Part shown: positions 29,738 through 54,462 of the stretch, in pieces
Layout of the letters: every line of letters begins with the position of its first letter
Numbering within the stretch: position 1 is the first letter of the stretch
From: Prochlorococcus marinus subsp. marinus str. CCMP1375
GTDB taxonomy: Bacteria > Cyanobacteriota > Cyanobacteriia > PCC-6307 > Cyanobiaceae
Assembly (NCBI RefSeq): GCF_000007925.1
Contig: NC_005042.1
Coordinates: 1,364,001-1,428,000, forward strand
Direction of reading: 5' to 3'
Length of the DNA stretch: 64,000 nt
Notes under the pieces: model-generated
Told to the model about the DNA's origin: nothing
Database searches by the model: none
What the model saw: the letters and a program-made list of their open reading frames with translations, nothing else
Made by a program: the position numbers and the translations under genes

Positions 29738-29857
29738 GATCTCATGTTATCGCGAGAACAAAGCTACTGAGGAAAAAACTTCTAATTAAAATTGACTAAT
29801 GAAAAGCAATCTAAGCAATTCAACATTTTTATTCAAACTTAAGAATTAATTTAAAAA

Positions 29858-30061
29858 TCCTCCTTTTCGTTTAATTCACGCGTAACACATTGTTTAAATT
29901 GCCATAAGGCTTTTACGCAAGTATTTAGGCTTTTCGGTTATTACTAACTAAAGTATAATTAACCGAATTAGGTGATATTTACCGAATCAATTTCTTCGGT
30001 TTACAACATTAGTAATTCTAAAAGACTAACGCAAAGTAGTGGTGTTAATTCACAGAACATC
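29858..30061 (+). promoter_or_regulatory. Conserved structured leader, copy 1
   Basis: About 200 bp upstream of the 30062 gene align with the leader at 53890-54095. Two potential hairpins are visible: TTCGGTTA (29933-29940) with TAACCGAA (29960-29967), and ACCGAA (29981-29986) with TTCGGT (29995-30000). The first and second pairs could also exchange arms. Confidence 0.65.
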
Positions 30062-30328
30062 ATGTACACATCTTTATTTGACCAAGTCTTCACCGACTCA
30101 TTCTTTTCTCCAATGCGGACTGTTTATGTAGTCTCTGATAGCCAACTAGAGGAGATCAAGCGCAAACAGCGACAAGAAGAACTCGACAATCTTGAAGCTT
30201 CTCGTAAAAGGCTAGAGGAAACCTACCAATCACGTATTCAAATTATCGATGAACGTGAACATGAACTGAAAGAAGCACTCAAGGCGCTATTGCCAGCAGA
30301 TAAAAAAAACAAACTCACTACTGAATAG
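30062..30328 (+). CDS. Coiled-coil protein of the MYTSLFD family, 88 aa
   Basis: I start at MYTSLFDQVF (30062) because the paralogue at 54096 starts there; the frame extends upstream through the leader, which is conserved as DNA rather than protein. The block FFSPMRTVYVVSDSQLEEIK is nearly identical in both, followed by a long charged helix (RQEELDNLEASRKRLEETYQ). It is probably a cytosolic coiled-coil protein. Function unknown. A strong terminator follows at 30398. Confidence 0.85.
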   Translation: MYTSLFDQVFTDSFFSPMRTVYVVSDSQLEEIKRKQRQEELDNLEASRKRLEETYQSRIQIIDEREHELKEALKALLPADKKNKLTTE

Positions 30329-30397: not shown

Positions 30398-30428
30398 GTG
30401 AGGGGCCTTATTTGGCCCCTCACTTTTT
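30398..30428 (+). terminator. Rho-independent terminator
   Basis: GTGAGGGGCC (30398-30407) pairs perfectly with GGCCCCTCAC (30414-30423), followed by TTTTT. It ends the 30062 gene's transcript. Confidence 0.93.
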
Positions 30429-53693: not shown

Positions 53694-53722
53694 ATTCCCT
53701 AAATAACGACAAAGAATTCTGT

Positions 53723-53887
53723 CTACACTGCGTAGAGCTTACAAGTAGATTTAGTAGGATAAAGCTTGCATTCCTTTTCCCAAAATAAATCTTGCTTTTG
53801 TTGTGGTAGTTCATAAGAGAAATCATGAATATAATCAAGATCTCTCAGTGGATTTGCAAAGACTGTAAAAGGAGTTCTCAGCTTCAT
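53723..53887 (-). CDS. Small soluble protein, 54 aa
   Basis: MKLRTPFTVFANPLRDLDYI opens an ORF with a perfect AGGAGG 4 nt before ATG. It ends LYAV about 30 nt upstream of the OsmC-cupin gene, so the two are likely co-transcribed. Three aromatic-rich stretches, two cysteines, no membrane helix. Family unknown. Confidence 0.68.
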   Translation of the reverse strand: MKLRTPFTVFANPLRDLDYIHDFSYELPQQKQDLFWEKECKLYPTKSTCKLYAV

Positions 53888-53889
53888 AA

Positions 53890-54095
53890 TCCTCCTATTC
53901 GGTTAATTCATTTTTAACACATTCTTGTAAATTGGATATAGTGCGTTCACGAAAGTATTTAGACTGTACGGTTCTTACTAACAAAAGTGCTATTAACCGT
54001 CTTAAGTGATATTTACCGTATATATTTCTTCGGTTTACATCATTAGTGATTTCTAAACCTAGAGGCAAAATAATACTATTCTCGCAAGGAACATC
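53890..54095 (+). promoter_or_regulatory. Conserved structured leader, copy 2
   Basis: Homologous to 29858-30061. TACGGTT (53967-53973) pairs with AACCGT (53995-54000); compared with copy 1, a T-A pair in the stem has become A-T, a compensatory change. A second, weaker stem is ACCG (54015-54018) with CGGT (54031-54034). Confidence 0.65.
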
Positions 54096-54389
54096 ATGTA
54101 CACATCCTTATTTGACACAGTTCTCTTCGACTCATTCTTTTCTCCAATGAGGACTGTTTATGTTGTCTCTGATAGTCAACTAGAGGAGATACATCGTAAG
54201 CAAAGACAAGAGGAACTCGACAATCTTGAAGCTTCACGCAGAAGACTTAAGGAGAACTATCAGTCACGCATCAAAATCATTGATGAACGTGAGCATGAGC
54301 TTCAAAAAGAACTCAAAGCGCTAACAGCAGCAGAAAAAAAAACTAAGTTTGGTGCTGAAGAAACTGAAAAGTGCGCTGTTAAGGTTTAA
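54096..54389 (+). CDS. Coiled-coil protein of the MYTSLFD family, 97 aa
   Basis: Paralogue of 30062-30328, sharing FFSPMRTVYVVSDSQLEEIH and the long charged helix RQEELDNLEASRRRL, with a longer tail (ETEKCAVKV). The conserved leader and a 3' hairpin frame the gene as at the other locus. Function unknown; possibly stress or phage-responsive, which is a guess. Confidence 0.87.
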   Translation: MYTSLFDTVLFDSFFSPMRTVYVVSDSQLEEIHRKQRQEELDNLEASRRRLKENYQSRIKIIDEREHELQKELKALTAAEKKTKFGAEETEKCAVKV

Positions 54390-54424: not shown

Positions 54425-54462
54425 TACAACTAAATGGGCCTTGTCTGGCCCATTTAGTTGTA
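54425..54462. terminator. Strong hairpin after the 54096 gene
   Basis: TACAACTAAATGGGCC (54425-54440) pairs perfectly over 16 bp with GGCCCATTTAGTTGTA (54447-54462), loop TTGTCT. There is no T tail, so it may protect the 3' end rather than terminate by the classic mechanism. Confidence 0.8.

Follow-up and report, generated by a model that had tools for sequence, protein, structure and literature searches.

Among the closest described counterparts of the leader analysed here is the RNA thermometer of Synechocystis hsp17, a non-coding sequence directly 5′ of a cyanobacterial small heat-shock gene, in which one short hairpin masks the ribosome-binding site and the start codon (PMC4477652). The ROSE and fourU thermometers also occupy leaders of small heat-shock genes (PMC3669281, PMC4166951), and stress-gene cis-elements located in or near the leader, CIRCE and the K-box, are known from cyanobacterial groE (PMC5381637). 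The present leader, found twice in Prochlorococcus marinus CCMP1375, shares with hsp17 the position in front of a small heat-shock gene in Synechococcus and Cyanobium, but in Prochlorococcus it is attached to an unrelated gene, here called the orphan. Unlike the single hsp17 hairpin, it comprises around 120 nt with four repeated blocks, and no masking of the ribosome-binding site is predicted for it. It differs from ROSE and fourU in sequence and length, and no Rfam family, these two included, matched it at the gathering cut-off, a permissive search of copy 1 giving chance-level matches only. The arrangement of its blocks also differs from that of CIRCE and the K-box. CIRCE (TTAGCACTC-N9-GAGTGCTAA) had no match in the window (the whole stretch of 64,000 nt that was analysed) when up to three mismatches were allowed. 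The K-box consensus is GTTCGG-NNAN-CCNNAC; it had no exact match in 287 loci, and its first half is resembled by block A of Synechococcus, GTTCGG being present in most Synechococcus copies.

The leader pair and its conservation in Prochlorococcus

The source genome is a single contig of 1,751,080 bases, and the window holds both copies of the leader. According to the original prediction, leaders of around 200 bp at 29858 and 53890 align although neither is coding, and were duplicated along with their gene. Pairwise comparison bore this out: the 5′ part (29854-29926 against 53889-53960) and the 3′ part (29927-30052 against 53961-54086) are each 76% identical, whereas shuffled sequences averaged 52% and never exceeded 58%, and the coding sequences are 74% identical as DNA and 80% as protein. 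Beyond the duplication, identity falls to the level of the shuffles (49% farther upstream and 46% 3′ of the stop). The two leaders are homologous and non-coding. Although the alignment extends over 29854-30052, the unit conserved across relatives is smaller than had been proposed, around 126 nt, with a 5′ edge that adjoins a -10-like box and a 3′ edge 9 nt from the ATG (Table 1).

Table 1. Features of the two leader copies and their genes, in window coordinates (R1 and R2, search models described in the text)
Feature	Copy	Position	Strand	Basis or remark
-10-like box TATTTA	1	29922-29927	+	position-matched in diverse Prochlorococcus leaders
Predicted transcription start	1	about 29931-29935	+	predicted from the -10-like box
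Conserved leader element	1	29927-30052	+	R1/R2 E 1.6e-21 / 5.3e-21; genome 1393927-1394052
Block A TTCGGTTA	1	29933-29940	+	sequence; 5′ arm of the stem originally predicted
Block B TAACCGAA	1	29960-29967	+	sequence; pairing partner of A or D
Block C TTACCGAAT	1	29979-29987	+	sequence; 98.8% of cells show a paired C-D core
Block D TTCGGTTTA	1	29995-30003	+	sequence; pairs with C or B
3′ motif CGCAAAGTA...TGT	1	30030-30046	+	conserved; possible small hairpin CGCA/UGUU
Orphan gene, 88 aa	1	30062-30328	+	ORF; predicted fold, one long helix
Terminator-like hairpin GTGAGGGGCC-TTATTT-GGCCCCTCAC-TTTTT, T run	1	30398-30428	+	sequence
-10-like box TATTTA	2	53956-53961	+	sequence
Conserved leader element	2	53961-54086	+	R1/R2 E 7e-20 / 1.3e-14; genome 1417961-1418086
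Block A TACGGTT	2	53967-53973	+	sequence
Block B TAACCGTC	2	53994-54001	+	sequence; contains AACCGT at 53995-54000
Block C TTACCGTAT	2	54013-54021	+	sequence
Block D TTCGGTTTA	2	54029-54037	+	sequence
Orphan gene, 97 aa	2	54096-54389	+	ORF
Terminator-like hairpin ACAACTAAATGGGCC-TTGTCT-GGCCCATTTAGTTGT	2	54427-54462	+	sequence

The orphan was present in 157 of the 400 family genomes sampled, with up to four copies each, and the 120-130 nt located 5′ of it were conserved in every subgroup examined, including those whose proteins are only 40-50% identical. The sequence farther upstream varied by subgroup, and the conserved part opened at the same CGGT throughout. Because 104 of 110 homologous leaders had no indel over 78 nt and no reading frame was open in more than 35 of the 110, the leader represents conserved non-coding sequence; uninterrupted upstream coding, as for a leader peptide, was rejected, since no frame was conserved. 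Of 48 diverse Prochlorococcus leaders, 14 had a TATTTA-like box at the -10 position, whereas 70 comparison windows averaged 5.0 and none exceeded 10, in an analysis from which near-identical sequences were removed and in which relatedness was only partly corrected. This -10-like box is weak but position-specific, and was seen in Prochlorococcus leaders only. Lying where the element begins, it makes a 5′ UTR likely, as had been proposed.

In several genomes, orphan copies contain internal stop codons (L009, L010, L012, L014, L017, L020 and L026), and in L009 and L010 the leader blocks have also decayed. In the window, a small divergent ORF (MKLRTPFTVFANPLRDL..., 53722-53887, minus strand) adjoins the leader of copy 2 and is kept there in relatives, and copy 1 retains of it only a stretch matching its SD (AATCCTCC, 29856-29863). 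Copy 2 appears to occupy the ancestral site, and copy 1 to be a transposed duplicate.

The element in front of hsp20 and a proposed exchange of genes

A model built from Prochlorococcus leaders only (R1) was searched in the 400 family genomes, a large sample in which clades are unevenly represented and whose Synechococcus, Cyanobium and Prochlorococcus labels were deduced from genus grouping and relatives. R1 also matched genera of marine Synechococcus where no orphan was found, with E values down to 4.6e-8; of the 49 loci of this kind that were read, 47 had the small heat-shock gene hsp20 directly 3′ of the match. The identity of Hsp20 is given by PF00011 (E around 1e-18), whose coordinates fall just downstream of the element in the same genomes. 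The Synechococcus hsp20 leaders and the Prochlorococcus orphan leaders align nearly gap-free over around 115 columns, the GG of block A being invariant or nearly so and the CCGA of block B nearly invariant in both groups. A second model, built from Prochlorococcus and Synechococcus leaders together (R2), revealed weaker copies of the element 5′ of hsp20 in Cyanobium-type genomes (G022, G018, G047, G049 and G021), and matches in G036 and G042 that had E values of 0.4-0.6 and yet adjoined hsp20. A class-wide search of 291 genomes gave a match in 32, all of this one family, and the element was found in no other cyanobacterial family sampled. When a wider regulon was sought in the source genome, R1 was significant only at the two leader copies. 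Most Synechococcus genomes have, 3-17 nt ahead of the leader, the stop of a conserved ORF of around 165 aa that ends in ..SWWW[LI] (L188:997-1497 and equivalents), an arrangement that would place the hsp20 promoter inside that gene or have hsp20 co-transcribed with it.

PF00011 was detected in 202 of the 400 family genomes, and hsp20 and the orphan occurred together in only three of the 157 genomes with the orphan (G007, G389 and G238, the last with a borderline orphan match). A published survey had reported the absence of sHSP from 13 Prochlorococcus genomes (PMC3827213). Among Prochlorococcus-type genomes, PF00011 is restricted to rare exceptions, G007 (contig C9, 31625-31927), G389 and also G147 of genus g29, in which Hsp20 is possibly phage-derived, a contamination or a true retention. 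The members G041 and G082 of genus g29, a larger-genome lineage, lack hsp20, have no leader that could be detected and gave only weak orphan matches; this genus may mark the point of exchange.

The element is homologous in front of the two genes, it keeps a constant position ahead of the start codon, and hsp20 and the orphan nearly exclude each other. The shared element and this near exclusion suggest that the regulatory leader of a stress gene was kept in cis while the gene behind it was exchanged. Most simply, the leader would be an ancient cis-regulatory element of the marine picocyanobacteria, already present before the lineages split, which would have first controlled hsp20 or would share common ancestry with the hsp20 element. 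In the Prochlorococcus line, hsp20 would have been lost or displaced and the orphan would have taken over the leader, often in multiple copies; this is the order of events that we infer.

RNA or DNA as the mode of action

The old hsp20-type element that now precedes the orphan acts, with a probability of about 0.55, as RNA. The transcript would begin with the element itself, giving a 5′ UTR of around 120 nt, in which the ACCG/CGGU blocks would form mutually exclusive pairings, A-B together with C-D or, alternatively, B-D. Proteotoxic stress would act through this pairing switch on how well the mRNA is translated or how long it persists, and the signal sensed may be temperature or a stress-released protein. 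RNA is favoured by the position and length of the element, by the scarcity of indels and by an asymmetry in the C-D stem, where 13.3 substitution events led to G-U against 1.0 to A.C; this bias is no more than suggestive, since a large share of it consists of A-to-G changes at one column. Changes within the A-B stem were about equally distributed between A.C (12.0) and G-U (14.3). Computed fold energies are weak, with no preference for one strand, the z-scores of the two strands being -1.37 and -1.07 for Prochlorococcus and -0.73 and -0.97 for Synechococcus.

Each copy contains two inverted pairs that compete, as had been described: the arms of the first stem (blocks A and B in Table 1) are followed by a second pair (TTACCGAA at 29979 and TTCGGTTTA at 29995 in copy 1) that can base-pair with either of these arms. 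These pairs, together with a T-A pair that became A-T in the second copy, had led to the proposal of a covarying, riboswitch-like leader. The change is real between the two copies, but it did not hold as covariation in 161 leaders, where the pair is T-A in 114, A.A in 28 (close relatives among them) and A-T in nine that form one clade of single origin. Larger alignments of 58, 110 and 161 leaders were analysed against tree-aware nulls with home-made analogues of R-scape, and no covariation was significant after correction. A tree-aware G-test found no significant real pair in the leaders, RNAalifold kept four pairs in 58 leaders, none of them changed on both sides, and no helix in the combined, Synechococcus-only or Prochlorococcus-only sets exceeded the phylogeny-aware null after correction. 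The 3′ hairpin, with the variants CGCA/UGCG in Synechococcus and UGCA/UGUA and others in Prochlorococcus, was significant when tested alone but not after correction over all helices, and was dropped as a covarying element after the global helix scan. A count test on 49 leaders gave a modest excess over simple shuffles, a control that ignores relatedness. What stands of the original prediction, and firmly so, is a conserved regulatory leader and not a covarying stem; as the leader has no Rfam match and its attached genes, a chaperone gene and the orphan, are not metabolic, a riboswitch is very improbable.

The position of the element 5′ of hsp20 also brings to mind a thermometer of the hsp17 kind, in which heat melts a hairpin that otherwise covers the ribosome site, a control to which cyanobacterial hsp17 is subject (PMC4477652). 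This is an unlikely mode of action here: the predicted accessibility of the ribosome site and start codon between 15 and 45 C was indistinguishable from that of shuffled leaders, and masking was rejected since these sites were not found paired at low temperature. Further, around 40 nt separate the end of the conserved part from the start of hsp20 in Synechococcus, there is no conserved pairing with an anti-SD sequence, and the Prochlorococcus copies have no clear SD. A more serious competitor, though still a doubtful one, is a DNA operator, in which the four ACCG/CGGT blocks would bind, in duplex DNA, a stress regulator of both hsp20 and the orphan. It has precedents in the leader DNA elements CIRCE and K-box of some cyanobacterial groE operons (PMC5381637), and it agrees with a sequence that is conserved without covariation and with fold energies that are alike on both strands. 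Most of the Synechococcus genomes searched contain, in addition, a near-perfect inverted repeat (TTCGGYT-N-ARCCGAA) before hsp20. However, this repeat was not reproducible before other stress genes across species, and neither a CIRCE-like match in the window nor the K-box consensus in the fetched loci was found. An operator would also have to accommodate around 120 nt of conserved sequence with a spacing fixed to the base and not to helical turns, conservation that reaches far 3′ of the predicted start site and the bias of C-D changes to G-U. Weighed together with the null results of the folding and covariation tests, the points in favour of RNA leave action as RNA ahead of the operator.

The orphan protein

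No Pfam family, PF00011 included, matched the orphan above the cut-off, and its comparison with the Hsp20 profile by hhalign gave a probability of 0.1-0.2. Structure prediction gives one long helix of coiled-coil type. The absence of an alpha-crystallin profile match, the hhalign value and the one-helix fold led to the rejection of the orphan as a shrunken Hsp20. In Synechococcus WH7803, HSP20 is strongly induced together with GroEL, ClpB1 and HtpG under several stresses (PMC7393227). Because the leader is common to hsp20 and the orphan, a stress role is the leading hypothesis for the latter, which is regarded here as a putative stress protein. Prochlorococcus is among the most abundant photosynthetic organisms, and nearly all of its lineages contain this multi-copy orphan family, whose tie to the control element of a missing chaperone gene provides a direct, testable function for the orphan. 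The leader family defined here is absent from Rfam, and it is a clear case of a regulatory region better conserved than the gene under its control. Tentatively, the leader may constitute a new class of stress-leader RNA, based on ACCG/CGGU switching, that outlived hsp20, the latter having been replaced by an unrelated coiled-coil gene that multiplied and serves as a substitute stress protein. On this reading, the orphan would provide Prochlorococcus with a stress protein in place of the sHSP that it lacks.

A phage origin was rejected, as no phage record matched either leader and the distant orphan homolog present in three podoviruses has no leader; a scan of IMG/VR for the orphan found none. 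In these podoviruses (9515-10a and NATL2A-133, with L142:2001-2255 and L143:2001-2255, and P-SSP6), the homolog is located 2 nt behind gp222, near psbA, and is possibly a captured host stress gene.
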